From a virus: a stretch of DNA of 25,506 bases. Positions within the stretch are counted from its first letter, which is position 1, and each line of letters opens with the position of its first letter. Shown in pieces: positions 11,602-25,506 of the stretch. The position numbers and the translations under genes are program-made. A model generated the notes under the pieces. The model ran no database searches, was not told where the DNA came from, and saw nothing but the letters and a program-made list of their open reading frames with translations. The stretch lies in IMG/VR virus record IMGVR_UViG_3300050821_000535, positions 1 through 25,506 of that record, one strand, 5' to 3'.

Positions 11602-11756
11602 AAGATACCTTGAAGTCAGTGCTCTCCCTTTCGCAGCAAGACAAGGATGAAGTGATGTACCGGCTCATGTTTGGTAAGGGTTGGAAGTTTTGTCCCAGAT
11701 GTGGGGAGGGACTTCCAAGATTGCCAAAGATTCACAAATGCCACGAAGTTGACTAA
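11598..11756 (+). CDS. tiny zinc-finger protein overlapping terL start (52 aa)
   Basis: 52 residues from ATG 11598 (ATGA overlap). The helical N-half, LSLSQQDKDEVMYRLMFG, is followed by FCPRCGEGLP and KCHE, a three-cysteine-plus-histidine zinc site. It overlaps the proposed TTG start of the large terminase gene by 8 bases, so the two may be translationally coupled. Function unknown. Confidence 0.55.
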   Translation: MKDTLKSVLSLSQQDKDEVMYRLMFGKGWKFCPRCGEGLPRLPKIHKCHEVD

Positions 11757-13335
11757 AGCCGCTGCTCAACAAATCGTATTTGAGCCATCCTCTCCAGTAG
11801 CCGATTCCTACATCTGGAACACCAAGCGCGAGTCGATGTTCGATGGCGGGGTGGGAAATGGCAAAACCACTTCCGGCATCCAAAGACTGCTTATCCTGGC
11901 AAAAGAGTTCCCCGGCTCCCGCTGGGCTGTAGCGCGTCAAACCTACAAGAGCCTGGTTAACACGACTCGCAAGACCTTTGACAAGCTTTGCCCTCCACAC
12001 TGGATCAAGCGCGACGTTAAAGAAGAAATGACGCTCCAGAACGGCGCTCAGATCCTCTGGATGCACCTCGACGACATGAGCGAAGGCGATCTCCGGTCAC
12101 TTGAAATTAACGGAGCATTCGTTTCACAGGCAGAAGAAATCGCTCCCGAGATGTGGGAATACATGGACTCCCGCATCGGACGATGGTCGAGGCCGGAATG
12201 GAAGCAGCCCTGCCCTCCGTATCTTTGGGGGGAGTGCAACGTCAACGGGCACGATTGGGTGTACTTCCGGTTCCATCCCGAAGTGTTTGGGAATAACGAC
12301 GTGAAGCACTACGCGGATGGCGGGCTCACCTGGGAGGGCCACCCAGACCGCTTTTACTGTTTCGGCTCGAGCGCAATCAATAAGCCCATGCTCGATAAGT
12401 ACGCTCCTGGCTATTACGACATGCTGATGCGTAAGCCGGAAGCCTGGAAGCGCAGATGGGTTTACGGGTCAAGGGACATATTCGAGGGAGCTATCCACCC
12501 CGACTTCAGGAGAGAGATACACGTTTATGACGCTGATAAGTTCGATCCCTTTGAGTGTATGGACGTTAAGTCTTGTTGGGGATGGTTTGATTACGGCTTA
12601 TCTGCTCCGACGTGTCTTTTGCTCTCGGCGTCCACGAGCGATAACTACCATTTCATCACTCATGAATACTACAAACGATCCACTCCCGGACGAACGATCA
12701 CGATTAGAGAGCATGCAAGCGCAATACTTAAACTCATGCGCGACAACCGGTATTCAGTCAGGGGAGTTTACGCCGACCCAAGCGTTTTTTTCGAGTCTAC
12801 TCGGGACCGCAGGACTCAAGTAACCTCCACCGCTCAGGAGTACCGCGAGTGCGGGCTCTACCTTATCAAGGCCGATAACAATGAAATCGCTTCTATCTCC
12901 AACCTGCAAGAACTTATGCATGTCAACCCTGTACTGCGGAATCCTCTTACTAAGGCTAGCGGTTCGCCGCGCCTATTTATCTCTTCCCGCTGCGAGAACC
13001 TGATCGACCAGATCCAACTCCAGCGCCATGCGGAAACACGTAACCCCTTAACCGGAGAGAAAGAATTCACAGAAGAACGGGCTGCAGGTATTCCCGACCA
13101 CGCTTACGATCCGCTGCGATACTTCGCCAACTCGTCGGTATGGCAAGCAATTCGAGTCAGGGAGCAGCCCCCGGCTCCGCAGTACCGCACCACGCCTGTA
13201 AACACGCAGCCTGTAAAGGGCTATGCAACTCCCAGTCAAATGCCACGAACGAGAACAACCGAATGGCGACAGCTACAGAAGCCTCCCATGCCCAACAGGG
13301 TAGAGCAGAAACAGGCATGGTGGAGCGGAGAGTGA
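11749..13335 (+). CDS. terL: terminase large subunit
   Basis: 528 residues. The motor packages DNA into the procapsid with an N-terminal ATPase and cuts it with a C-terminal RNase H-like nuclease. The Walker A motif GGVGNGKTT is at 33-41; the Walker B-like NGAFVSQAEEI at 121-131 has E129/E130 as the likely catalytic carboxylate region. The nuclease shows WFDYGLSAPTCLLL with D281, VYADPSVFF with D343, and GIPDHAYDPLRYF with D450 and D454. The frame is open to 11671, but TTG 11749 gives the usual short lead before Walker A and overlaps the previous gene by only 8 bases; its ribosome-binding site is weak. The last 60 residues are Pro/Gln-rich. Confident call; start uncertain. Confidence 0.92.
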   Translation: MTKAAAQQIVFEPSSPVADSYIWNTKRESMFDGGVGNGKTTSGIQRLLILAKEFPGSRWAVARQTYKSLVNTTRKTFDKLCPPHWIKRDVKEEMTLQNGAQILWMHLDDMSEGDLRSLEINGAFVSQAEEIAPEMWEYMDSRIGRWSRPEWKQPCPPYLWGECNVNGHDWVYFRFHPEVFGNNDVKHYADGGLTWEGHPDRFYCFGSSAINKPMLDKYAPGYYDMLMRKPEAWKRRWVYGSRDIFEGAIHPDFRREIHVYDADKFDPFECMDVKSCWGWFDYGLSAPTCLLLSASTSDNYHFITHEYYKRSTPGRTITIREHASAILKLMRDNRYSVRGVYADPSVFFESTRDRRTQVTSTAQEYRECGLYLIKADNNEIASISNLQELMHVNPVLRNPLTKASGSPRLFISSRCENLIDQIQLQRHAETRNPLTGEKEFTEERAAGIPDHAYDPLRYFANSSVWQAIRVREQPPAPQYRTTPVNTQPVKGYATPSQMPRTRTTEWRQLQKPPMPNRVEQKQAWWSGE

Positions 13336-13492: not shown

Positions 13493-15496
13493 ATGCCTCC
13501 AGGTCCTCCGACCTCCGTTTCTCCTGACACCGGACCGGCTGAACGTGACTCCGATCAGGGAACAACGCACAGCGATGATTCTAATCAAGCTAAGACACGA
13601 GTCGCGGGTCTCTCGGATGCTGAGATTGTTTCTCAGATCGAACGCTACCGCAACGAAGCGTTCATGCGCGAATACATCATCCGAAATACCTGGCTCGACT
13701 GCTATGGCCAGTACCGTAACAAGCAGGATTTCGATGATAAGGCTCCCTGGCAATCCCGGCTCACTTATGCCAAGGCTCACTCCGCTGTTAAGAACTTTGC
13801 CGCAAATATCATTAGGCTATTACTACAGTCCGAACAATGGGTAACTGTCGATCCGGGATCGTCCTATAACCCGACTATCGACATCAAGCACATCTCCCCA
13901 CTGGTTGAAAAGGTCGTACTAAAGCTAGCCAACAACGCGCATTTCAGAAGCCAGTTCCGAGACGCTTTGGAGTTCGGGGCGGCTTGCGGGTTGGGAGTAT
14001 TGAAGGTTGGCTGGGGCTATCGCAACGTATTCGACTTGTCGGTTAAGGGCGACGATACCGGACCGCTACTCATCCAGAAGAAGCGGAAGGAGGGCCAACT
14101 CTATGTTCAATCGATTGATCCTTTTCATATCTGGTTTGGCCCTCGTACTCGGGACAATAACCGCCTTGATTTTATCATCGAAGAAACCCTGGTGGACGTG
14201 GACGAGCTCAAAGCCCAAAAGGGATTCGAGAATACGAGCGAACTCGAACACGTTGACCGCATTGCCGACCAGATGTACTTCGCGGACCAGGTATACACTC
14301 GTGATTTCGCCCGCTACGATAAGCGGCTCATCCCCGCAGAGCACTACAGAAAGCAAGCATTGCTCTGGGAGTATTGGGGCGACATCATCGACGTACATAC
14401 CCAACAAGTCGTTAAAGCCAACCAGCACATCTTGATTGCCAACCGAACCACCATCCTGAAGTTTGAAGATAACCCTTACTGGGATGGACTACCTCCGTAC
14501 ATCGTGTTCTCTCCGCTGGTAGTGGCCGGCCGGTTTCCCGGCCAAGGCTTGCTGGAAATGAATCTTAGCGTAAAGGATGCCGCCGATCGGACCGCACAGA
14601 AACAGGAAGATCACCTAAGTTTTAGCGTAGTTCCCATGCTGGAGGTGGAAGCAAGTGCCCTGGAGAATCCCGAAGGCGACATGCAGACCGGCGTCCAGCC
14701 GGGGAAGGTCTTCTATAAAAGGGCTGGTGCTGGTCCTAATGCTGTCCAAGGCGTTCAATTCCCCCAGCTTGGCAACTCTTCGTTCAACTTTCTCCAATCA
14801 CTCAACAAGGAGTACGAACGAGGAACTTTCATCACCGAGCAAGCGCAGGGCTTACTTGATGTCAAAGGTGAGACTACTGCTACAGAGATTCAGCAAACCC
14901 AACTCCAGTCCACGCTGATCCTGGCCGACATAGCCGTAATCATCGAGGACAACTGCCTGTCATTTGTTGCTGAAAAGATGTGGAGCAGAGCCTTCCAGTT
15001 TGTCGATGCTACCAGCAATCCGACTTGGACAATGCTGCTTGGAGATGCGGGTAAAGTTCTCGACCAGCTACCCATCCAGACACGGCTTAACCTGATTTGG
15101 GGACGCTACTACTTTGAGGCTCGTGGACTTTCCCGAACCATCGAGCGCCAGCAGAATCTTTCCAAGTACAAAGACCTACTGATGACGTTAGCACAGTTCG
15201 GACCGCAAGCTATCAGCGCAGTAGGGATGAGACTGAACAAGATGTTGAGGCGCGTCGCAGATGCCTATCATCTTCCCGATCCTGATGAGCTATTCGATCC
15301 CAGCGCAGATGATATGGAAGAGCAGTCTAGGCAAGCCGCACTAGCTCAGCAGAATCCTTTCCTTACCGAGATGGCGCGAGCGCATGGCCAGATCGCATCT
15401 TCCCGAGAAGCGAACGATCAGCAGACCTTACAGAAATTGCTGGATGCGGCCATGAGTCTAGGGCAACCCCCATCCGCCCCTGGGCCAGCAGCGTGA
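13493..15496 (+). CDS. portal protein
   Basis: 667 residues from ATG 13493. Portals are dodecameric rings at one capsid vertex through which DNA passes and to which terminase docks. The first 35 residues are disordered, followed by DAEIVSQIERYRNEAFMREY. Then come a conserved-looking APWQSRLTYAKAHSAVKNFA, a predominantly alpha/beta body, and the region KQEDHLSFSVVPMLEVEA through EYERGTFITEQAQGLLDVKG near residues 380-460, typical of wing and stem segments. The C-terminus is Ala/Gln-rich and disordered. Length is near that of P22-type portals. Position right after the terminase and before the scaffold and capsid supports the call. No clear ribosome-binding site precedes the ATG. Confidence 0.82.
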   Translation: MPPGPPTSVSPDTGPAERDSDQGTTHSDDSNQAKTRVAGLSDAEIVSQIERYRNEAFMREYIIRNTWLDCYGQYRNKQDFDDKAPWQSRLTYAKAHSAVKNFAANIIRLLLQSEQWVTVDPGSSYNPTIDIKHISPLVEKVVLKLANNAHFRSQFRDALEFGAACGLGVLKVGWGYRNVFDLSVKGDDTGPLLIQKKRKEGQLYVQSIDPFHIWFGPRTRDNNRLDFIIEETLVDVDELKAQKGFENTSELEHVDRIADQMYFADQVYTRDFARYDKRLIPAEHYRKQALLWEYWGDIIDVHTQQVVKANQHILIANRTTILKFEDNPYWDGLPPYIVFSPLVVAGRFPGQGLLEMNLSVKDAADRTAQKQEDHLSFSVVPMLEVEASALENPEGDMQTGVQPGKVFYKRAGAGPNAVQGVQFPQLGNSSFNFLQSLNKEYERGTFITEQAQGLLDVKGETTATEIQQTQLQSTLILADIAVIIEDNCLSFVAEKMWSRAFQFVDATSNPTWTMLLGDAGKVLDQLPIQTRLNLIWGRYYFEARGLSRTIERQQNLSKYKDLLMTLAQFGPQAISAVGMRLNKMLRRVADAYHLPDPDELFDPSADDMEEQSRQAALAQQNPFLTEMARAHGQIASSREANDQQTLQKLLDAAMSLGQPPSAPGPAA

Positions 15497-15874: not shown

Positions 15875-16151
15875 CATCAAACCAATCCCAGGTTCTGCAA
15901 CGGAGAAAGCTATCCCGCAGGCCGGTCAAGCAATGGTTGTGCCGGCAGTAGAAGAGATCCCCGGAACGTCTGAGGAAAACGCACGGCAGGGTGGGCGCAT
16001 CGAGACCAAGGCTTACGAAGGTTCCGAGACTCGCCCGCAGGAGCTGCACGGCGCGGTGGAGTATCAGCGGCAGACTGCCGATCCAGGTGGGGTGCCCAAG
16101 TTCTACGATTACACGGAACTCACGAAGCCTCGCGAAACCGTCCGAGGGTAA
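15867..16151 (+). CDS. hypothetical protein, portal-scaffold interval 2
   Basis: 94 residues from ATG 15867, preceded by AAAGGAGA. The composition is Gly/Pro/Glu-rich and probably extended or disordered (KPIPGSATEKAIPQAGQAMV, then AYEGSETRPQELHG, VEYQRQTADPGGVPKFYDY). No domain is visible. The next gene begins at the very next base after the stop. Confidence 0.6.
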   Translation: MPDIKPIPGSATEKAIPQAGQAMVVPAVEEIPGTSEENARQGGRIETKAYEGSETRPQELHGAVEYQRQTADPGGVPKFYDYTELTKPRETVRG

Positions 16152-16367
16152 ATGCATAAGCCTATCCAGATAATCTGCACCCAAGAGAAGATCATCGCCC
16201 TTCGTGAGGACGGCAGTATGTGGGAGAAACCACTAGAGAGCTTCGTGACTTGGTGGAACGAAATTCTCAGTCCTCACAAACAGACAGATGATGAAGTGAA
16301 GCGAGAAACAGAAGCGCTTGAGCGTCTTAGTAGGGCTGTTGGTAAGGCTGCTTTCGGAGGCAAGTAA
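16152..16367 (+). CDS. small hypothetical protein, portal-scaffold interval 3
   Basis: 71 residues from ATG 16152, directly abutting the previous stop. A beta-like start (IQIICTQEKIIALREDGSMW) resembles a strand-turn-strand unit that binds or folds around a Trp; helices follow (EVKRETEALERLSRAVGKA). Function unknown. The next gene abuts at 16368. Confidence 0.6.
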   Translation: MHKPIQIICTQEKIIALREDGSMWEKPLESFVTWWNEILSPHKQTDDEVKRETEALERLSRAVGKAAFGGK

Positions 16368-17045
16368 ATGGCACGCACAAGAGTACCAGCACACATCACC
16401 GAATCGGTAAGCCAGAACTTTGGGTTGGATGTGACTATCAATCGCTCACCACAGCCTAAAGTCAATCTCCTAGCCAACGGTGATACCAAGGATGGCAAAT
16501 TATCGCCTGTCTATAAGGGCTATCGAGAAGTTATCCCTCCCGGCTCTTTCGGTTCACGCGAAGGAGTAGACAAGTTGGAGCCGGCACCGCAGCGCGTGGA
16601 TACGGTAGCGCACTATGAAACCGAACAAGCCGATCCCACGCTGCACGGTCCTATGGCTGCAATGCGATCAGCAGATCAGTCTGTAGCGTTTCAAACCTAT
16701 CCTAGCTTCCAGCCACGTACTGCGCCATTGCCCCGCAACGCTTCTGATGAACTCTACCTAAGAGGCTACGGTGTGAATGCTGCCGATCCTCGCATGAGCG
16801 ATTACGATTCCGACACCATGTTGACGGACCGCGACAGACCTGACCGGCTGGACCTGTACGGCAATAACCGGGACGGCGTGTTGCACAACGACAACGGCCA
16901 TTCCGGCTTCAAGGCTGTGCAGGGCAAAATAGCTGCGAAGGAAGGCGTATCGCAGCAAGCGGCAGGAGCAATACTTGCCAACTCCACGCGACACGCTTCC
17001 GGGGCGGCTAAGCGCAGCAACCCGCGCCTCAAGAGGGTGAAATAG
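16368..17045 (+). CDS. hypothetical protein, likely virion-associated
   Basis: 225 residues from ATG 16368. Rich in Asn, Asp, Pro and Arg with few hydrophobic runs; begins TRVPAHITESVSQNFGLDV and ends with KEGVSQQAAGAILANSTRHA plus a basic tail (AKRSNPRLKRVK). The C-terminal helix and basic tail could bind DNA or another head protein. No family recognised. Position between portal and scaffold suggests assembly or an ejected internal protein, but this is inference. Its TAG shares a base with the next start. Confidence 0.6.
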   Translation: MARTRVPAHITESVSQNFGLDVTINRSPQPKVNLLANGDTKDGKLSPVYKGYREVIPPGSFGSREGVDKLEPAPQRVDTVAHYETEQADPTLHGPMAAMRSADQSVAFQTYPSFQPRTAPLPRNASDELYLRGYGVNAADPRMSDYDSDTMLTDRDRPDRLDLYGNNRDGVLHNDNGHSGFKAVQGKIAAKEGVSQQAAGAILANSTRHASGAAKRSNPRLKRVK

Positions 17046-17281
17046 TGGACAGGCGGAAGTTTCTTGGTTCGTTGTTAATGGCGGTCCCGGCAGCGTCAAT
17101 TGCCACAAGTCAGGTACTAACTAAAACAGAAGGCCAGCCAATTAAGGGCACTGACGTGTTATGCACGGAAGGCTCGTGTTCATTTGAACGACCGTGCGGA
17201 TTCCATCAGCACTATGGCTTTCAGACAACCACCCAGGCCTACGTGTTTGCTCCGTGGCGCGGCGGCCCAATCTATAAATAA
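17045..17281 (+). CDS. small exported protein with twin-arginine-like signal
   Basis: 78 residues from GTG 17045, overlapping the preceding TAG by one base. The N-terminus MDRRKFLGSLLMAVPAASIA has the Tat pattern: R3-R4, then K-F-L-G, a moderately hydrophobic stretch and an Ala-rich end. The mature part has a cysteine cluster (CTEGSCSFERPCGFHQHYGF, three cysteines and two histidines) that could bind a metal or form disulfides. An exported protein in the middle of a head-gene operon is unusual. It might act in the periplasm during infection, or the stretch might simply be a membrane anchor. Function unknown. Confidence 0.6.
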   Translation: MDRRKFLGSLLMAVPAASIATSQVLTKTEGQPIKGTDVLCTEGSCSFERPCGFHQHYGFQTTTQAYVFAPWRGGPIYK

Positions 17282-17706
17282 TGCCCACCCAAGAGCAACT
17301 CGACTCCCGTAAGAAGCTCAAGGAATTCGTTGAGGCTGCGGGGGCCACGCTCGACCGGATCAAGGGCGGCTTAAAGTCGAAATGGTTCAGCAGGCCCAAC
17401 ACTGAGCTGCAAGGCTGGATCGAACGGGGAAGGGCCATTGAGGAAATCAAAGACTCGATGGGCTATCAGCTAATCGTTACACAGGCAGACCGGGAAATAC
17501 TTTGGGCTCAGCAACAGCTTGAAATCTGCGATGAGAAAGTAGTGTCGGAATTAAGGCTTTACCTGAGAGCGCTTCGCTTCTTGCATGACTTCATCCTGAC
17601 CACGGATCGCAATGCGGATATAGCGTCGGGAGTCTTAGCGGGAAGAGAAGCGGCAATTGGGAGAGATGCAACTACATTCGTGAAAAACGCACAGGTACGA
17701 AGTTGA
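17281..17706 (+). CDS. helical hypothetical protein
   Basis: 141 residues from ATG 17281, within a TAATG junction that shares a base with the previous stop. It looks largely alpha-helical: EQLDSRKKLKEFVEAAGATL, then EEIKDSMGYQLIVTQADREI, WAQQQLEICDEKVVSELRLY and LRALRFLHDFILT. No signal or membrane segment is seen. By size and helicity it could be a small assembly or connector protein; unproven. Confidence 0.6.
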   Translation: MPTQEQLDSRKKLKEFVEAAGATLDRIKGGLKSKWFSRPNTELQGWIERGRAIEEIKDSMGYQLIVTQADREILWAQQQLEICDEKVVSELRLYLRALRFLHDFILTTDRNADIASGVLAGREAAIGRDATTFVKNAQVRS

Positions 17707-17903
17707 TCTCACCGCCGAATATGAGCGAGCAAGCCTTTGCTGAGTACGTTAACTCTCTGCCGAAACCCAAGCTAGGAATTTGCGTGCCGTGTGGGATGTC
17801 TACTGATCTCACTGTGGCTAATTACATTCCCAGACATCGTTCGTGGTGCCACACCGTTACCGACCCGCACCGCACTTACGAAATAGAAATAGTGGAGGAT
17901 TGA
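17703..17903 (+). CDS. small Cys/His protein before scaffold
   Basis: 66 residues from TTG 17703 (4-base overlap with the previous stop), or 60 from ATG 17721. It has CVPCGMSTDL, then HRSWCHTVTDPH, consistent with one zinc site. The start region shares an 18-base exact match with the beginning of the ERF gene in the window, both encoding EQAFA. Its TGA overlaps the scaffold ATG (TGATG). Function unknown. Confidence 0.5.
   Translation: MISPPNMSEQAFAEYVNSLPKPKLGICVPCGMSTDLTVANYIPRHRSWCHTVTDPHRTYEIEIVED
17726..17743 (+). repeat. 18-base exact repeat, copy 2 (partner 9-26)
   Basis: Second copy of CGAGCAAGCCTTTGCTGA, directly after the ATG AGC at 17721 of the small Cys/His gene. Flanking bases differ on both sides, so the match is exactly 18 bases. 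Confidence 0.7.
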
Positions 17904-18865
17904 TGCCAGCAGCCGGAACCACCAGTGAGCTTTATCTAAACGAGAACGAAAGCGGACAGCATCTAGGAGCGCCACCCAGCTCTCCGACTCCTACCCCTCC
18001 ACCTACCAAGGTGGAAGTCTCTCAGCCCGTAGTAACGAAGTCTCGCATGGCGGATCAGAAGCCAGATGGCTCTATCCGCGATACTTCAATGGAGGCATTG
18101 GAACCAGGTAGAGACCTTGGATTCCGAAATATAAGTGATGAAGAAAACACCCCCAAGCCGGTAGAGGCAAAGCCAGAAGAGAAGCCCGCGGAAGCCACCA
18201 AGGTTGAAGTGCCTCCCGTAGTAGAACAGCCGAAAGTTTACGCCGGGAAGTACAAATCCGTCGAAGAGTTAGAGAAGGCTTATGACGAAGCGCAAAAGCT
18301 CATTACCAGGCAGGGGCAAGAGAAAGCGGAGCTTGTAGCGAAAGCCCAAGCTACTCCGCCTCCAGCGCCAGCTCCTAAGACTCCCGCACAGATCGCAGAG
18401 GAGCAGGCGGAAAACAATCGCATCATCAACGACTTTGCAACTAACCCTAAGGAGTTCATCGAAAAGAATTTAGTGCAACGGGTTCAGACTGCGTTAACCG
18501 CTCAGCAAGTTGCTGAGAATTGGCGCACGAACAACCCGGATTTGAAAGAACATGAAGTGCGTGTGGCTTTCGAGGCTACCCTGCTCGCACAATCGGACCC
18601 TGAGCTTGCACGGAATCCCGCAGCCCTTTTAACCAAGGCTACGGACACCTTCCGTCAATTCACCGGGAGACTCCGAACAGAGGGTGCCAAGGAAGCACTC
18701 ACGCAAGAGACGCGGACCATTCCGCTTCTCAGTAACTCCGCTCCAGCCGCAGCAACGGAACACCCTTCTACGAAGGCTCCGCTAACCGCCGATGCCGCAT
18801 TCGACAAGCATATGGCGATGCTGAAGGAACAAGAGCAAAAGTCCCATCGCGGATTACGTCGCTAA
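17903..18865 (+). CDS. scaffold-like capsid assembly protein
   Basis: 320 residues from ATG 17903, with GGAGG upstream and a TGATG overlap. Scaffolds guide coat assembly and leave or are digested. Typical traits: a long Pro/Glu/Lys-rich disordered first third (PPSSPTPTPPPTKVEV), the motif AGKYKSVEELEKAYDEAQKL at about residues 113-132, which often occurs in phage scaffolds, a Gln/Ala-rich helical middle, and a charged C-terminus (HMAMLKEQEQKSHRGLRR) of the sort that contacts coat. It lies directly upstream of the capsid gene. Good call by composition and position, no catalytic motif. Confidence 0.72.
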   Translation: MPAAGTTSELYLNENESGQHLGAPPSSPTPTPPPTKVEVSQPVVTKSRMADQKPDGSIRDTSMEALEPGRDLGFRNISDEENTPKPVEAKPEEKPAEATKVEVPPVVEQPKVYAGKYKSVEELEKAYDEAQKLITRQGQEKAELVAKAQATPPPAPAPKTPAQIAEEQAENNRIINDFATNPKEFIEKNLVQRVQTALTAQQVAENWRTNNPDLKEHEVRVAFEATLLAQSDPELARNPAALLTKATDTFRQFTGRLRTEGAKEALTQETRTIPLLSNSAPAAATEHPSTKAPLTADAAFDKHMAMLKEQEQKSHRGLRR

Positions 18866-18884
18866 GGACTTCGGTTCGATCAGC

Positions 18885-18904
18885 AGGCAGCAATCTAGCT
18901 GTCT
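18885..18904 (+). promoter_or_regulatory. hairpin in capsid gene leader
   Basis: AGGCAGC-AATCTA-GCTGTCT gives a 7-base-pair stem (one G-T pair) with a 6-base loop in the 53-base gap before the capsid gene, just 5' of its AGAGGAG ribosome-binding site. No T-run follows. A stem here could stabilise the capsid message or mark a processing site. Confidence 0.3.
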
Positions 18905-18918
18905 AGAGGAGTCTGTCC

Positions 18919-19875
18919 ATGCCTTCACAGTTGTTCGGTACGAACAGCTTGGGCGGCTTTTTCACTAACAATGAACTGTCGCTCCAGTTGCGCATCAAGG
19001 CCCAACCCCTAAAGCGGTTCCGGCAATTCGTTCAGATCAAAGGAGCCAAGGGAGCACGTCGCGGTAATAAAGTCTACTTCGACAAGCTTCAGCCCATCGT
19101 CACTGCCGGTAGCACTTCGGGCCTCAACGAAACCGCCACCATCCCTGAGAGCAACTTTACCATCAACCAGGGAACCCTAACCATCAGCGAGTATGCGAAC
19201 GCTATCCCGTTCACCAATCAGCTCGTGGCATTGTCTGAGTTGGATGTCGATAACTCGGTCGTGCAAACACTGATGAACGATATGGCGATCACGCTCGACT
19301 CCGTTGCTGGGGCGCAGTTCCAGTCTAGCGATCTCACCTATGTTTGCTCGTTGTCAAACTCGGTGAACATCACTACGAATGGCACCGCATCGACCACAGC
19401 CAGCTCGAACCTCAACGGTACGAACTGGCGTGCGATTTGCGATGACATGCGCAAAAAGAACATCCCGTTCTATGACGGGCAATCCTACGTTGTGATTTGC
19501 AGCGTGGGCGCATTGTCTGGCTTCTTCTCCGATACCCAGACGGGCGGCTTCGTGGACGTGACCAAGTATTCCGAGACGCTTTCGGAGTACCTGTATCGCG
19601 GTGAGGCTGGCCGGTACTACATGGGCCGGTTCGTGGAAGAGACCAACGTCCTGTCTAACGCCCCCGGCACCACCACCACCGCAGGAGAGGCCGTAGCTAT
19701 CGGCTTTGACGCCGTGATGGAAGGTGTTGCCATCCCCGAGGAACTGCGCGAGAAAGTGCCGACTGATTACGGTCGGTCGCAAGGTATCGCGTGGTATGCG
19801 CTTTTGGGATTTCAAAAAATTTGGAACCAGCAAACGGATGGGAGCGAACGAATCGCTCACATCACAAGTAAATAA
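18919..19875 (+). CDS. major capsid protein
   Basis: 318 residues from ATG 18919, with AGAGGAG upstream. It forms the icosahedral shell. The protein begins MPSQLFGTNSLGGFFTNNEL, then has GNKVYFDKLQPIVTAGSTSG, LNETATIPESNFTINQGTLT and ISEYANAIPFTNQLVALSEL, the 'LnEtatiPe...qgtltisEy.n.ipfT..l' pattern of a coat group found in short-tailed and other phages. The later LTYVCSLSNSVNIT and the C-terminal RSQGIAWYALLGFQKIWNQ fit the HK97-like shape. Length and position after the scaffold agree. Confident as capsid; exact coat family is less sure. Confidence 0.85.
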   Translation: MPSQLFGTNSLGGFFTNNELSLQLRIKAQPLKRFRQFVQIKGAKGARRGNKVYFDKLQPIVTAGSTSGLNETATIPESNFTINQGTLTISEYANAIPFTNQLVALSELDVDNSVVQTLMNDMAITLDSVAGAQFQSSDLTYVCSLSNSVNITTNGTASTTASSNLNGTNWRAICDDMRKKNIPFYDGQSYVVICSVGALSGFFSDTQTGGFVDVTKYSETLSEYLYRGEAGRYYMGRFVEETNVLSNAPGTTTTAGEAVAIGFDAVMEGVAIPEELREKVPTDYGRSQGIAWYALLGFQKIWNQQTDGSERIAHITSK

Positions 19876-19890
19876 GGAGGCCGAAAACTA

Positions 19891-20313
19891 ATGGCATACA
19901 CAGATTCCAGAAGTTACGTCGGTCCCTTCACCATCGCAGCGCAGAACGCTGTTTGTACCGCTTCCGGCCAGATCATAGCCGGAGGCACCACGCAGCTTCT
20001 GCCTGTGGCTGAGCCTACTTTCCTATGCAGTATCGCAGGGGTTGTCACCGCAACTCCTACCACCCCACCCGCTGGCGTGAAATTCTTCGTTGTGGTTGGG
20101 ACAAACACCACGACGGGACAGATCACGCCTTCACCGGCTAGCACGCTGGCGCAGTCGTCTGCGTCGGCTGCTTACAACACGTTCATTCCTTCAGTGGCTC
20201 TTGCTGGAGGATCGGCGTTTACCATCGGCCTCGTTTGTACCGGAACCGCATCTGCGACCGAGACAATCGGAGCCATAACCGGATCGGTGGGGCTTGCACC
20301 GCAGTTTGTCTAA
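19891..20313 (+). CDS. small structural protein, possible head decoration
   Basis: 140 residues from ATG 19891, with AAGGAGG 10 bases upstream. Ala, Thr, Ser, Gly and Val dominate, with almost no charge (ATPTTPPAGVKFFVVVGTNT, then SASAAYNTFIPSVALAGGS), suggesting an all-beta virion protein such as a decoration or stabilising protein that follows the coat gene in many phages. Two to three cysteines. No catalytic motif. The call rests on position and composition. Confidence 0.55.
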   Translation: MAYTDSRSYVGPFTIAAQNAVCTASGQIIAGGTTQLLPVAEPTFLCSIAGVVTATPTTPPAGVKFFVVVGTNTTTGQITPSPASTLAQSSASAAYNTFIPSVALAGGSAFTIGLVCTGTASATETIGAITGSVGLAPQFV

Positions 20314-20491
20314 AGGAACAGGGGCGGTTGTCGTTGTGGCAATCGCCCTTCTCTTTCAAGGCTGTACGGCAGTCAGGTATAACCCGCAATCCACATTGCC
20401 TCTTGATTGTTTCGTTAGACGGATTGGCGATCAATTACACGAAGTCTGTTGCTGGGAGGACAACGAAGTGCATTGCGTGATCGAGGAATGA
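20306..20491 (+). CDS. small predicted lipoprotein
   Basis: 61 residues from TTG 20306 (or 65 from TTG 20294), overlapping the previous gene by 8 bases. SKGTGAVVVVAIALLFQGC is a lipoprotein signal: a hydrophobic core and a lipobox-like FQGC with Cys20. The mature 40 residues are acidic with further cysteines (LHEVCCWEDNEVHC). Phage lipoproteins of this size include Rz1-type outer spanins and superinfection-exclusion proteins, but no Pro-rich Rz1 feature or inner partner is seen. The stop overlaps ATG 20488. Function open. Confidence 0.6.
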   Translation: MSKGTGAVVVVAIALLFQGCTAVRYNPQSTLPLDCFVRRIGDQLHEVCCWEDNEVHCVIEE

Positions 20492-21123
20492 CGCAGATCA
20501 CCCAGACCATGCTTGGGGCGCTCTCCGACAAAGTAGAAACCCTACATCACTGCCACGTCAAAGAAGAACGCGCCTGGATGTTTACTTCCGAGGATACCCA
20601 AACTACCGAACACGAATACCTGAACCTGCTACACGCATTGGTCTATTGCTTGAAGCCGCTAAGCGTTCTCGAAACCGGAACCTTCAAAGGCTACGGCACT
20701 ACAGCCATGGCGAAGGCATTGAAGCGCAACGGAGTCGGCAGGATTGTAGGCGTGGAAATAGAGATGAAAGCCGCGATGTGGGCAGGAGAGATGCTGCGAG
20801 TTAACGGCGTGGCGGATTGGGCCGACATCGTTGTGTCTGACTCTATCCACTATCTCAGTACCACGGGCCGCATCTTCGACTTCGCGCTATTCGATTCACA
20901 GATCCCACTACGCTGCAAAGAGTTGAAGATTTGCCTAGAACGAGGGCTGCTTCGTTCAGGATCTATGGCTTGTCTACACGATACCTCAAGACTTAGGACG
21001 ACCACGCCGGGAGAACCTGACCAACAAGCCAAGGCGCATTGGGACGAGTTCCTTTCGATACCAGGGATTCGCTTTGTGGAGTTTCCGCTAAGTCGCGGAC
21101 TTACCTTGCTACAGGTGGAATGA
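20488..21123 (+). CDS. class I SAM-dependent methyltransferase
   Basis: 211 residues from ATG 20488, in an ATGA overlap with the lipoprotein gene. Motif I is VLETGTFKGYGTTAMAKAL (about residues 62-80), followed by RIVGVEIEMKAAMWAGEML with an acidic end of strand 2, and later FDFALFDSQIPLRCKE, SGSMACLHDTSR and a final strand, LTLLQVE. The pattern is like small-molecule or sugar O-methyltransferases (the CmcI / Methyltransf_24 type) rather than DNA methylases, as no DPPY/NPPF motif is present. The neighbouring spike and glycosyltransferase suggest methylation of a surface sugar or virion glycan. Fold is confident, substrate unknown. Confidence 0.75.
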   Translation: MTQITQTMLGALSDKVETLHHCHVKEERAWMFTSEDTQTTEHEYLNLLHALVYCLKPLSVLETGTFKGYGTTAMAKALKRNGVGRIVGVEIEMKAAMWAGEMLRVNGVADWADIVVSDSIHYLSTTGRIFDFALFDSQIPLRCKELKICLERGLLRSGSMACLHDTSRLRTTTPGEPDQQAKAHWDEFLSIPGIRFVEFPLSRGLTLLQVE

Positions 21124-21629
21124 AGCCCAACGGGGAACTCAAGAAATTCTCGGCAGTAACCTCCGGTCGATCCTCCATTATCAGCGGGGCGAAGTTTACT
21201 CGTGGCTTTGTGATCCGGCCCGAGCAGATGCTTTCGCTTCTTCACGATACTCATCCCAACTTACCGATCCCCCACGATGCGCACTTTCAGGGAATCGGGT
21301 TCGAGGATGAAGGGGTAGACAGTCTGATCCAATTCTTCTTCACCTCACAGACGGCTCCGTGGGAGCACTGCGTCGCCCTAAAGCCGCAACTATTCTTTGG
21401 CCTGTTGGTCGATTTGGCTGATGGGCTCTTGCCGAAAGATTCAGAGCTAGACGGAATCGAGATCAGCAAGAACTTTACCGTGTTGATGCTGAGAGTCAAA
21501 TCGTCCCACTGGCCTCCAGCGCCAACGGATGCAATGCCGCTTTATCACCTCAGATACGACCTAGGGAGACTTACACTTGTCGATCCATCGAAAGCTATTG
21601 AAGGCGATAGGCGCATTAGGATTAATTAG
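21120..21629 (+). CDS. hypothetical protein in surface-modification module
   Basis: 169 residues from ATG 21120, overlapping the methyltransferase stop (ATGA). No domain is recognised. It has mixed alpha/beta features (FTRGFVIRPEQMLSLLHDTH, then HFQGIGFEDEGVDSLIQFFF, KNFTVLMLRVKSSHW) and ends VDPSKAIEGDRRIRIN. Its last 53 bases encode the signal peptide of the spike gene in another frame. Position suggests a spike- or glycan-related role, unproven. Confidence 0.6.
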   Translation: MKPNGELKKFSAVTSGRSSIISGAKFTRGFVIRPEQMLSLLHDTHPNLPIPHDAHFQGIGFEDEGVDSLIQFFFTSQTAPWEHCVALKPQLFFGLLVDLADGLLPKDSELDGIEISKNFTVLMLRVKSSHWPPAPTDAMPLYHLRYDLGRLTLVDPSKAIEGDRRIRIN

Positions 21630-24012
21630 CCTTCTGCCAGTTCTGGCAATGGCGCAAGGCAACACCTACCAGCCACAACTGATTACCGGCAACGGCGCAC
21701 CTGGTACGGGAGCTTTTCAAACCTGCGCGATCTACCAGGAATACATCGACGTATCGACGGGGAACAAATGGCACTGCCTGCCTGACAATAGCGGGCAGCA
21801 TGGATCATGGGTAGCCAATCTCAACCCCTCTTCCCTCAACTCCATCATCTTCGTGGATGGAGTGACGTACCCGCTCAACTCCACGGGATTGACCAATGCT
21901 TGTACGGCAGCAGGAGCAAGTGGAACGGTAGGGATTAGCAAGCCTATTGTGATGACGGCGAATGTAACGTGTAGTTCTGCCATTCAATTCTTTGCTGGCG
22001 GAACTATCACCACAACAGGTTGGACACTCACGCTTAATGGCACGATCTTCTCTCCTGACGTGCAGATTTTATTGGGTACGGGAAGTATTGTTCTCGGGTC
22101 GAATGGTGCCGGGCCGATCATGGCAACGTGGTTTCCAGGTTCCGATTGTGGAGCACGCATCAATACCGCCGATGTAGCAACCGGAAACACCCCGCGTGAA
22201 ATTTGGGTGGATCAAGCGTGCGGTTCTGTTTGGACAACCGCTGTCGTGATTGGAGCAAGCGCCCACAATTACCATACCTTGCGGTTTATTCAAGGGGGAA
22301 CGTATACGACCTCAGCGGGTATCTCCTCCGCATCAGTAGGTGGAACGATACTTGGCGTGGCCCAATCAATCGCAGGCGGCTCAGGCATCAAAGCTGGGCC
22401 TACGGTATTGCAGGCTGCAAATGGCAGCAATTTAGCAGCGCTCGTATCAGTCAACGGCGTGGCTGAGCTATCAGTACGTGACCTCATCCTAGATGGGAAC
22501 AAAAGCAACAATCCCACTGGGGGAGTCTGCCTTCTTGTCACTGGAGGAGCTTTCCGGTACGACTCCGAAAGTGTCGTATACCAGAATTGCTCGACTCATG
22601 GCGCTTGGCTTAATTCCTCTTGCTGTGCGTCGTTCCGGTCGTCGTTTTTCGGCAATAACAGCATAGACGGTATCTTTGCCAATGCCAGTGCGGATATTTT
22701 CGTTGGGGAAGCTACGCAGTTCAACATCCAAGGGATTGCTCCCACGGTCAACACTACTTCCACGACAATCACGGCGACGAGCGGAAGCTGGAGCACGGAT
22801 TCCTCGCTCGTCGGCACTACGGTACGGGTGAACAACGCTTTCAACTGCACCGTGGCGGCTATTCCCAGCACCACGACGATTACGATTGGCCAATGCTGGA
22901 ACTATCCTGCAGGAACGGCGGCAACTCTCAGTACACTCACAGGCGTATCGATGGCGTGGGGCGACAACATCGAGTTGGTGAACTCGCCCACCATGCGAAT
23001 CAATCATGCCGATATAGCACAGGCTCAGATGGATGGCATCTTCGCTCGTGGGACTTCGGGCGGCTCTGCCAACCTAATCAATGAAGAAATGATCGGTCCT
23101 GCAATCGAGATGGGCAACTATCAGAACGATATCGAAATTGTCGGATATGACACGGTAGGCGCGGCCACAACGTCAATCCTAAACAACATTCAGGGGATCA
23201 CTTTCATTGGCGACACCAACCGCACTAATAATATCTATAGCTCAATCAAGATGGTGGATGGTGGTCTAAGCAATATCTCCGGGCTTTCTTGCGGCGCTGG
23301 TCCGGTAGGGCATCTATCGAAAGCGTGCCTAGAGTTCACAGAAACAGCCGGTGGCCGAATGACGGCCAATCAGGTTTCCGCAAATATGATAAATTCAGCG
23401 GCCTTTGGAACTGCCGGGATAATTGACTCTACCGCAAACGGCGCAACGGGACTGCAAATCGCAGTTCATGGCGGCGGCAGTTCGGGCGCAACACTAGACC
23501 TGTTCGACCAAACAGCAGCGGCAGCGAACCCACACAAATTCTTCCGTGTGGCGGGTGGAACTCTTCAGATTGTGAATAGCTCTTTCGGGGCCGTGATCCA
23601 GCAGTTAACCGATAGCGGTAATTTGATGCCGGTAGTGATCGCCGCGAATCAAGGCACCGCACTGAGCAATGGAGCCATTTCTCTCGGCACTGGTTGGGGA
23701 ACTGGCGCAAGCGCGGCGGTTTGCACAGGACCGGGATGGACGAATACTGGCTGCTTCACGATTACGTCTGGTAGCGCGTCATTCTCAGCGGCTCCTACTG
23801 TTACGGTAACTCTTCCAAATACGATTCCGTCTGCGAGCACCCCTTGCACGCTTGATGTCCACGCAATCACCGGAGCAGGCGGCGCAATCATCTTCGATGA
23901 GACGACATACTCATTCTCGGCTCCGGTTTTCACGGCCACGACTTCTACGGGTGCGGCTTTCACTCCAGCAGTAACCGAGACTTACAAAGTAGTGCTGCGG
24001 TGCGGACCATGA
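21577..24012 (+). CDS. tail-spike-like parallel beta-helix protein with N-terminal signal peptide
   Basis: 811 residues from TTG 21577, with GGGAG 7 bases upstream, beginning 53 bases inside the previous gene. Residues 1-26 look like a Sec signal: MSIHRKLLKAIGALGLISLL, then PVLAMA with cleavage after A26. Next is TCAIYQEYIDVSTGNKWHCL, and a long Ser/Thr/Gly/Asn-rich region with repeated short strands, including AELSVRDLILDGNKSNN near 300, the hallmark of pectate-lyase-type beta helices. The last 130 residues (TVTLPNTIPSASTPCTLDVH, then ETYKVVLRCGP) look like a beta-sandwich. Spikes bind or degrade surface glycans. A secretion signal on such a protein is unusual. Alternative: a secreted, host-derived surface protein. 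Confidence 0.7.
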   Translation: MSIHRKLLKAIGALGLISLLPVLAMAQGNTYQPQLITGNGAPGTGAFQTCAIYQEYIDVSTGNKWHCLPDNSGQHGSWVANLNPSSLNSIIFVDGVTYPLNSTGLTNACTAAGASGTVGISKPIVMTANVTCSSAIQFFAGGTITTTGWTLTLNGTIFSPDVQILLGTGSIVLGSNGAGPIMATWFPGSDCGARINTADVATGNTPREIWVDQACGSVWTTAVVIGASAHNYHTLRFIQGGTYTTSAGISSASVGGTILGVAQSIAGGSGIKAGPTVLQAANGSNLAALVSVNGVAELSVRDLILDGNKSNNPTGGVCLLVTGGAFRYDSESVVYQNCSTHGAWLNSSCCASFRSSFFGNNSIDGIFANASADIFVGEATQFNIQGIAPTVNTTSTTITATSGSWSTDSSLVGTTVRVNNAFNCTVAAIPSTTTITIGQCWNYPAGTAATLSTLTGVSMAWGDNIELVNSPTMRINHADIAQAQMDGIFARGTSGGSANLINEEMIGPAIEMGNYQNDIEIVGYDTVGAATTSILNNIQGITFIGDTNRTNNIYSSIKMVDGGLSNISGLSCGAGPVGHLSKACLEFTETAGGRMTANQVSANMINSAAFGTAGIIDSTANGATGLQIAVHGGGSSGATLDLFDQTAAAANPHKFFRVAGGTLQIVNSSFGAVIQQLTDSGNLMPVVIAANQGTALSNGAISLGTGWGTGASAAVCTGPGWTNTGCFTITSGSASFSAAPTVTVTLPNTIPSASTPCTLDVHAITGAGGAIIFDETTYSFSAPVFTATTSTGAAFTPAVTETYKVVLRCGP

Positions 24013-24015
24013 CAG

Positions 24016-24089
24016 GGAACCGCCGATCCAAATCCCGGACTGGATACCGGTCTCCCCGCATTTCTGCAGGTATGTGAAGGGGCGGTTCC
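24016..24089 (+). repeat. 9-bp inverted repeat between spike and glycosyltransferase
   Basis: GGAACCGCC (24016-24024) and GGCGGTTCC (24081-24089) are perfect complements around a 56-base loop that contains a smaller stem, GACTGG-ATA-CCGGTC. The structure fills the 106-base gap (24013-24118) before the next gene. No T-run follows, so a leader or attenuator RNA is as likely as a terminator. Confidence 0.35.
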
Positions 24090-24118
24090 GATGAAATTCT
24101 ACCATCAGGAGAAACTGA

Positions 24119-25506
24119 TTGACTTGGAGAATTGACGCAAGCGAAGGCAACGAGACGGCGAAGATTCACGACAGAATAGCCCCATTTGTTTACGGCCACG
24201 GTGTAGATCTTGGCTGCGGCTGCTGGAAGCTGAAGGTTGAAAAGAGCAGAGACCATTCCTGTATAGGCGTGGATATGGGCATGTCCACGTTCGCCTGTAA
24301 GGAGGCAGATGTTATCGCGGACGTGTCTAACCTTCCCTTCAAGGATGAGCTATTCGATTACGTCTACTCCTCCCATACGCTTGAGGATATGCACTATAGC
24401 GAAGCTGTGCTTATCGAGTGGTGGAGGATTCTCAAGCCCGGAGGCCGGCTGATCCTCTATCTGCCGCTGACAAAGAAAGTAGCTAAGGAATTGGGCCGCG
24501 AGGATTGGGAGAATTTCTATCCCAACAAAGGAGAAGAGGGCGCAAACGTCTACCATGCCAAAGATTTCTATCCCCAAGAGATTCGAGATGCGATAGGCAA
24601 GATCGGGCACGCGGAGGTACTAGCCGATGAAATCAGGGGCGACAAAGACGAGTACAGCTTCCTGCTCGTATTCCTAAAGTGCGCATCTACTGCAAGTCCT
24701 GTTAAGGGTATAGCTACTCAATCTCTCGGAAAGCGAGCTTTGGTGGTTCGCTACGGAGCTATCGGCGATTTCATACAAACTGTTCCAGTGCTTAAAAAGC
24801 TCAAGGAAGAGGGCTATCACGTCACTGTCAACGGTTCGGAAACGGCCAAAGACGTTCTGAAATACTGCCCCTACGTCGATGAAATAGCCGTACAGATCAA
24901 GGACTACGTTCCCAACAGGGGCGTGGTGTCAGGACCGCTATTCGATTACTGGGTTGAATTGGCAAAGAAGTACGACAAGTTCATTAACCTGACCGGGGCA
25001 GCGGAAGAGACGCTGCTGGTCCCCGATAACAGACTGATGCACATGATGGAGCACATTCGGACGAAGCACCCCGAACTGAACGAAGAGAGCGTGTTCTATA
25101 ACGCGGTACGGACGGTGCAGCAGCAAGTGGGGGAGACCAATTACTATGACAACCACCTTGCCAAAGCCGGATATGCCGACAGGGGACTTAACGGGGAGCT
25201 GTTTTTCAGCGAGCAGGAAGAAGTCATGGCCCAAGGTTTTAGGGACAAATATCCGGGCCGCTTTATTGTCATGTGGGTACTCTCAGGTTCGAGTTACCAC
25301 AAGCGGTATCCTTACTTTCAACAGGTCGCCCAAGAGCTCGTAATCAAGAATCCCGATGTGTTACTTATCTCTGTAGGAGATGCCGAATGTGCGCTGATCG
25401 AGAGAAGCGAATCGAACCGCTATCTACCCAGGGCGGGGAAGTGGCAACTCAGAACCAGTTTAGTGATGACCAAATATGTAGACTTAGTGATTGGTCCAGA
25501 GACTGG
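24119..25506 (+). CDS. methyltransferase-GT9 glycosyltransferase fusion (3' end outside window)
   Basis: Open frame of 462 codons from TTG 24119 (AGGAGA six bases upstream) to the window edge; no stop is seen. Residues 1-190 are a class I methyltransferase: GVDLGCG at 28-34, DVSNLPFKDELFDYVYSSHT at 68-87 and WWRILKPGGRLILYLP at 101-116. From about 206 a family 9 glycosyltransferase starts: RALVVRYGAIGDFIQTVPVL, later FIVMWVLSGSSYHKRYPYFQ and, at the edge, DLVIGPET, matching the nucleotide-sugar-binding half of ADP-heptose transferases. The protein would add and methylate a sugar, on host LPS or on the virion. Domain calls are confident; partner and substrate are unknown. Confidence 0.82.
   Translation, partial: MTWRIDASEGNETAKIHDRIAPFVYGHGVDLGCGCWKLKVEKSRDHSCIGVDMGMSTFACKEADVIADVSNLPFKDELFDYVYSSHTLEDMHYSEAVLIEWWRILKPGGRLILYLPLTKKVAKELGREDWENFYPNKGEEGANVYHAKDFYPQEIRDAIGKIGHAEVLADEIRGDKDEYSFLLVFLKCASTASPVKGIATQSLGKRALVVRYGAIGDFIQTVPVLKKLKEEGYHVTVNGSETAKDVLKYCPYVDEIAVQIKDYVPNRGVVSGPLFDYWVELAKKYDKFINLTGAAEETLLVPDNRLMHMMEHIRTKHPELNEESVFYNAVRTVQQQVGETNYYDNHLAKAGYADRGLNGELFFSEQEEVMAQGFRDKYPGRFIVMWVLSGSSYHKRYPYFQQVAQELVIKNPDVLLISVGDAECALIERSESNRYLPRAGKWQLRTSLVMTKYVDLVIGPET

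Follow-up and report, generated by a model that had tools for sequence, protein, structure and literature searches.

In the chlorovirus PBCV-1, the end of the capsid glycan is built and methylated by A064R, a GT-GT-MT protein (PMC9614988). In the mycobacteriophage Corndog, gp35-gp38 comprise an O-methyltransferase and glycosyltransferases inside the virion operon, which were proposed to add both methyl and glycan groups to the capsid (PMC4351075). Furthermore, capsid glycans are reported for the mycobacteriophages Che8 and Rita (Freeman 2023, as cited in PMC11256854). Within the literature covered, phage virion glycosylation is documented mainly for mycobacteriophages. TibC, one of the BAHT enzymes, carries an iron finger built of C339, C342, C358 and C370 (PMC4358343).

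Here we describe a gene in which a SAM-dependent methyltransferase (MT) is fused to a glycosyltransferase of family 9 (GT9). It lies at the end of a viral DNA stretch of 25,506 nucleotides (IMG/VR: IMGVR_UViG_3300050821_000535), a linear IMG/VR fragment that we call the window (Table 1). Such a fusion was not described in the open-licence papers that we searched.

Table 1. Features of the window, with coordinates in related loci where a locus is named.
Feature	Position	Strand	Remarks
Terminase large subunit	11671..13335	+	phrog_2, 1.6e-17
SU10-type portal protein	13493..15496	+	PF23899, 3.9e-22
Major capsid protein (MCP)	18919..19875	+	phrog_1357, 7.6e-19
140-aa Ser/Thr-rich (25.7%) protein	19891..20313	+	adjoins capsid gene; candidate decoration protein, candidate acceptor
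Second methyltransferase, O-methyltransferase type	20449..21123	+	same slot; PF13578/PF01596
ORF196 (cluster c19)	21039..21629	+	directly upstream of fusion in spike-less relatives; conserved from about residue 28
Putative spike, 811 aa	21577..24012	+	named from sequence appearance and the first-pass annotation; no family match
Shine-Dalgarno-like AGGAGA	24107..24112	+	6 nt before TTG start; from sequence
MT-GT9 fusion gene, 5' part	24119..25506	+	462 of 625 codons; stop past the window, from sibling contig (L002/L104)
Class I SAM methyltransferase domain	24131..24688	+	residues ~5-190; VDLGCG, D52, D80, H86; PF08241, with invariants in 68 members
Variable low-confidence linker	24689..24730	+	residues ~191-204; pLDDT < 50 at 192-201
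GT9-type GT-B domain	24731..25504	+	residues 205-462 in window, on to ~590
GT9 domain motif residues			D217 (GAIGD), K395 (GSSYHK), E461 (GPETG)
Relatives with decayed SAM motif, part 1	L196:8054-9721, L201:7171-8874, L204:11996-13516, L211:2441-4045
Relatives with decayed SAM motif, part 2	L213:3152-4663, L222:12219-13865, L225:4263-6293, L250:11194-12696

One reading frame for two domains

Positions 24119-25504 form a single uninterrupted frame of 462 codons, open at its 3' side at the window end, and the translation reads as a methyltransferase followed by RYGAIGDFIQTVPVL. The first-pass annotation, made from the sequence alone, had joined an MT and a GT9 domain in this frame, which the PF08241 match and the GT9 profile and structure matches described below bear out. 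It had also advised extending the contig to find the stop. The sibling contig IMGVR_UViG_3300021168_000103 overlaps window positions 16119-25506, differs there at 15 of 9,388 bases (99.84% identity) and provides this stop, giving a complete fusion protein of 625 aa. In the sibling contig a 319-aa gene follows the fusion gene with a 4-nt overlap.

The TTG start proposed at the same time is credible, since an AGGAGA ribosome-binding site lies 6 nt upstream, no codons separate the TTG from the preceding in-frame stop, and the relatives have an ATG at the equivalent place.

No stop or frameshift interrupts the junction of the two domains in the sibling contig, and relatives carry the same fusion. 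Nearly all loci of a dereplicated set of 71 have both domains in one frame; this set was assembled by similarity, not at random. Moreover, purifying selection is strong on both domains in the window clade, with dN/dS of ~0.03-0.1 where dS is not saturated. The junction is therefore not an artefact, and a fusion by chance or by frameshift was ruled out by the sibling contig, the fused relatives and the purifying selection. The two domains are also inherited together (Mantel r 0.74, with none of 500 permutations reaching as high a value).

There are natural exceptions. In one locus (L021) the MT and GT9 parts are encoded as overlapping genes. In two others (L010:2690-2720 and L011:2660-2690) the fusion is split by 7 inserted nucleotides between RYG and AIGD of the first GT9 motif, which leave an overlapping ATG (TATGGTTGA). 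As the split is present in two contigs from different samples, a single sequencing error does not explain it. In these two loci the GT9 part would be predicted to lose its first strand unless the reading shifts or the fragments pair.

The methyltransferase domain

The MT domain is matched by Methyltransf_11 (Pfam: PF08241) above the cut-off (E 1.3e-12). SAM-binding motif I (DxGxG) and the acidic residue after the second strand, which characterise class I SAM methyltransferases, are both present. D30, G32 and D52 are invariant in 68 members of the family, and G34 is found in 66 of the 68. The fold of the domain in the AlphaFold model matches SAM methyltransferases with Z ~16, and up to 16.8 with 3dli (VIA).

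Eight relatives have kept the N-terminal domain with a decayed SAM motif (e.g. LAFGVGDD or LEITNG). The sequences suggest a non-catalytic or acceptor-recognition role for the domain in those relatives, and methylation is therefore not essential everywhere in the family. The 'add and methylate' chemistry is plausible for the clade of the window, judging from its intact SAM motif.

The GT9 domain

The GT9 domain is more divergent at the sequence level. For the truncated protein of the window, Pfam reports no GT9 match. The completed protein matches Glyco_transf_9 (Pfam: PF01075) with an E-value of 9.5e-4 and 19 bits, just under the Pfam cut-off of 22, and 11 of 13 members match this family at E <= 0.1, the best with 5.8e-9. 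TIGR02193 matches with 2e-8 and is found in 19 of 68 members. A single-sequence phmmer search against the PDB returned methyltransferases only; the glycosyltransferase side surfaced only with a profile. The profile alignment of the domain to WaaF is significant and that to WaaC is insignificant.

An AlphaFold model built from 68 homologues has a mean pLDDT of 82.5 and a pTM of 0.80; an earlier model from 13 sequences (pLDDT 68) was set aside. The closest structure to the GT domain is 3tov_B (VIA Z 23.9, rmsd 3.9, 290 aligned residues), next to E. coli WaaF (PDB: 1psw; Z 23.2, rmsd 4.5, 283 aligned), TibC (Z 21.2, rmsd 9.5) and WaaC (Z 20.1), and Foldseek supports a heptosyltransferase-type GT-B fold with an E-value of 3.3e-13. 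The GT-B fold that had been expected in the second half of the protein is thus confirmed by the model and its 3tov and WaaF matches. The catalytic-type residues D217, K395, R445 and E461 as well as four C-terminal cysteines are invariant in the 68 members. D217 and K395 align with D13 and K195 of E. coli WaaF, and E461 sits in GPETG, which is aligned with the NDSG of WaaF. The heptosyltransferase-type GT-B fold, the GT9 profile match, the catalytic Asp and the donor-binding Lys together place the domain in GT9.

A GT-B fold is also possible in phage DNA glucosyltransferases. The gene lies inside the head module and the MT motif has decayed in some members, so that the protein might hypermodify DNA bases or have a non-catalytic role in head assembly. 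We consider this very unlikely, given the GT9-specific similarity and the invariant catalytic-type residues; for DNA modification in particular, the Pfam matches obtained for two relatives included no base-modification family.

Distribution of the family

By profile scan, at least 491 stretches in viral contigs encode the family. Full-length or nearly full-length relatives also occur in about a dozen bacterial genomes, among them Paraburkholderia, Polaromonas, Accumulibacter and Aromatoleum, and one family record is a 57.5-kb provirus with an integrase at its edge. In a tblastn search of 50,697 phage records with four family proteins the fusion was absent, with at most weak matches to the MT domain. 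Prophages of Betaproteobacteria do carry it, such as those of Paraburkholderia sp. C35 and P. rhynchosiae (L024, L025). Likewise, plasmids gave MT-domain matches only and the fusion was not found there.

Some relatives carry further gene content of interest. A Paraburkholderia provirus with an MT-GT9 gene encodes a reverse transcriptase (L277, G011:C1:5958-6623), and a bAvd-like protein was detected in the two genomes that were scanned together; the sequences suggest a diversity-generating retroelement in this prophage. In the protein set of the two relatives scanned together (A4, L274-L279), a GARS-type ATP-grasp protein, a PP-binding phosphopantetheine carrier and an Asp/Asn beta-hydroxylase were detected.

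A fixed place between capsid and adaptor

In the dereplicated loci, the gene order is SU10-type portal, a ~95-aa protein, a ~340-aa protein, MCP, a ~130-aa Ser/Thr-rich protein, a ~80-aa protein, MT-GT9, adaptor, head closure Hc3 and DNA ejection. Neighbourhood ORFs came from a simple greedy caller, and the key counts were redone by a six-frame profile search with profiles from the same loci. By this search, 53 of the 55 loci that extend at least 5 kb upstream of the fusion have the MCP on that side (median distance 1.1 kb), and a head-tail adaptor is downstream in 54 of 61 loci, mostly overlapping or within a few nucleotides. MCP upstream and adaptor downstream are found together in 41 of 48 loci, and the median gap between the fusion gene and the next gene is -4 nt.

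We also chose loci by their capsid protein, taking the 80 best matches to the MCP alignment from fusion-bearing loci. Where at least 6 kb of downstream sequence was available, a family GT9 was nearby in 30 of 38 loci, a fraction that this choice biases upward, and a one-frame fusion was present in 15 of 38. Such a gene is missing from a cultured Vibrio phage whose head module is the same. Other enzymes are often found in the same slot, namely GT2, a TylF-type MT, an FkbM-type MT and a second GT9. With glycan-modifying genes set within its structural operon, the family has the gene arrangement of a phage virion glycosylation module. In one relative (L182:6998-7630) the slot protein is weakly similar to the C-terminal domain of BclA, the tip of an exosporium glycoprotein, and is possibly a capsid-attached fibre, as judged from this similarity.

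The first-pass annotation had described the fusion as following a spike gene and had asked if this holds in other phages. It does not: a spike precedes the fusion only in the window and in two loci of its subclade (L105, 6174-7970, and L113, 5926-7980), which makes it a clade-specific insertion, and we rejected the spike-linked context in favour of the MCP/adaptor context of the family. The three putative spikes share ~100 N-terminal residues with a hydrophobic, signal-like segment, and their C-terminal parts are unrelated. A signal-peptide-like start would be unusual for a virion protein such as the putative spike.

It is improbable for the same reason that the enzyme acts solely on the neighbouring spike or on a tail protein, in the way a TibC-like protein heptosyltransferase would on a beta-helix protein: most of the family has no spike at this place. 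In the window itself the spike is adjacent and Ser/Thr-rich (21.6%), TibC is matched in fold (Z 21.2, rmsd 9.5), and the four conserved cysteines resemble the TibC iron finger; such a finger is, however, also present in an ordinary host WaaF.

Both LPS remodelling, with a block of superinfection, and decoration of the virion had been proposed from the start. In the former, the enzyme would add a heptose or another sugar to the host LPS core (and methylate it), and would thereby block superinfection or the re-adsorption of progeny to debris. This agrees with GT9 being the LPS heptosyltransferase family and with the identified prophage hosts, which are mainly Gram-negative Betaproteobacteria. 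Moreover, in 8 of 57 bacterial loci a relative of the MT domain has a GT9-like gene beside it on the same strand. However, the gene is within the head operon, with its stop overlapping or touching the adaptor, and not beside lysogeny genes, and of 16 contigs, which include fragments, just 3 had a detected integrase. The head-morphogenesis site, the coupling to the adaptor and the mostly integrase-less contigs therefore make a role in LPS remodelling rather unlikely, and of the two proposals we prefer virion decoration.

Proposed glycosylation and methylation of the virion

The simplest role for a sugar-transferring and methylating enzyme whose gene lies within the head operon, and whose stop overlaps the adaptor start, is tailoring of the virion. 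We therefore favour late glycosylation of a virion protein combined with O-methylation by the fusion enzyme, to which we give a probability of roughly 60%. The placement between capsid and connector genes points to methylated sugars being put on the phage's own particle, and not to a change made to the host.

We infer the time of expression, the acceptors of the sugar and of the methyl group, the sugar, the order of reactions and the benefit, as follows. The bifunctional enzyme would be a late product of infection, made when the head and connector proteins are. Through its GT9-type GT-B domain it would move a host-made nucleotide sugar onto a protein of the virion; the capsid, or a decoration protein of the capsid whose gene is adjacent, is the probable acceptor. 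The N-terminal SAM methyltransferase would next O-methylate the transferred sugar. The methylated glycan may mask the particle, or alter its adsorption or stability.

The donor is probably host-made, since the Pfam matches (E <= 1e-8) obtained for two relatives, whose ORFs came from a crude caller, included no family for nucleotide-sugar synthesis. It may be ADP-heptose, the usual donor of the GT9 family to which the domain belongs. More tentatively, a broad, as yet uncultivated lineage of SU10-portal phages might possess a near-core GT9-MT step that uses host ADP-heptose and leaves methylated heptose on capsid or decoration proteins. If true, this would be protein heptosylation by a virus.

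Across a broad group of environmental phages, a fused enzyme for sugar transfer and methylation has come close to fixation in the head operon. Its presence in prophages of cultured Paraburkholderia means that phage protein glycosylation would be testable in Gram-negative hosts. GT9 genes in viromes should also not automatically be taken for LPS-modifying auxiliary genes.

Comparison with known systems

The phage enzyme shares with the GT9 LPS heptosyltransferases (WaaF, WaaC and 3tov) the GT-B fold, the Asp in G-x-GD, a donor-binding-type Lys and an acidic residue in a (D/E)(S/T)G motif. It differs from them in its MT fusion, its place in a head operon and an identity of only ~13-18% in structural alignments. 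The C-terminal Cys4 finger is absent from E. coli WaaF and WaaC, whereas the own WaaF of a Paraburkholderia host carries a Cys4 motif (CSPCFQRECPLGHLNC) at its C-terminus. The finger can therefore not tell protein from LPS heptosyltransferases and, as GT9 is an LPS family, the sequence by itself gives no preference for a protein acceptor.

For this reason we downgraded the BAHT membership that the Cys finger had pointed to. TibC and AAH have the GT-B fold and four conserved cysteines in common with the phage enzyme, but the Cys spacing is merely similar, the identity is 11-12% and the finger is not unique to BAHT. In place of the N-terminal beta-barrel of BAHT, residues 5-190 of the phage enzyme form the MT fold.

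PBCV-1 A064R, together with A061L, resembles the window in that a single viral polypeptide both transfers sugars and methylates, and in having a second, separate MT (PMC9614988). A064R differs in the GT-A type fold of its domain 1, its GT then MT order, its algal virus and its target, a capsid-protein N-glycan, and we claim no homology. Corndog likewise has O-MT and GT genes inside the virion operon; in Corndog, Che8 and Rita the genes are separate and the hosts mycobacterial, and tblastn with the GT9-MT fusion gave no match to mycobacteriophage enzymes in the phage collection. Corndog, Che8 and PBCV-1 A064R are precedents for the virion tailoring that we propose for the fused MT-GT9.
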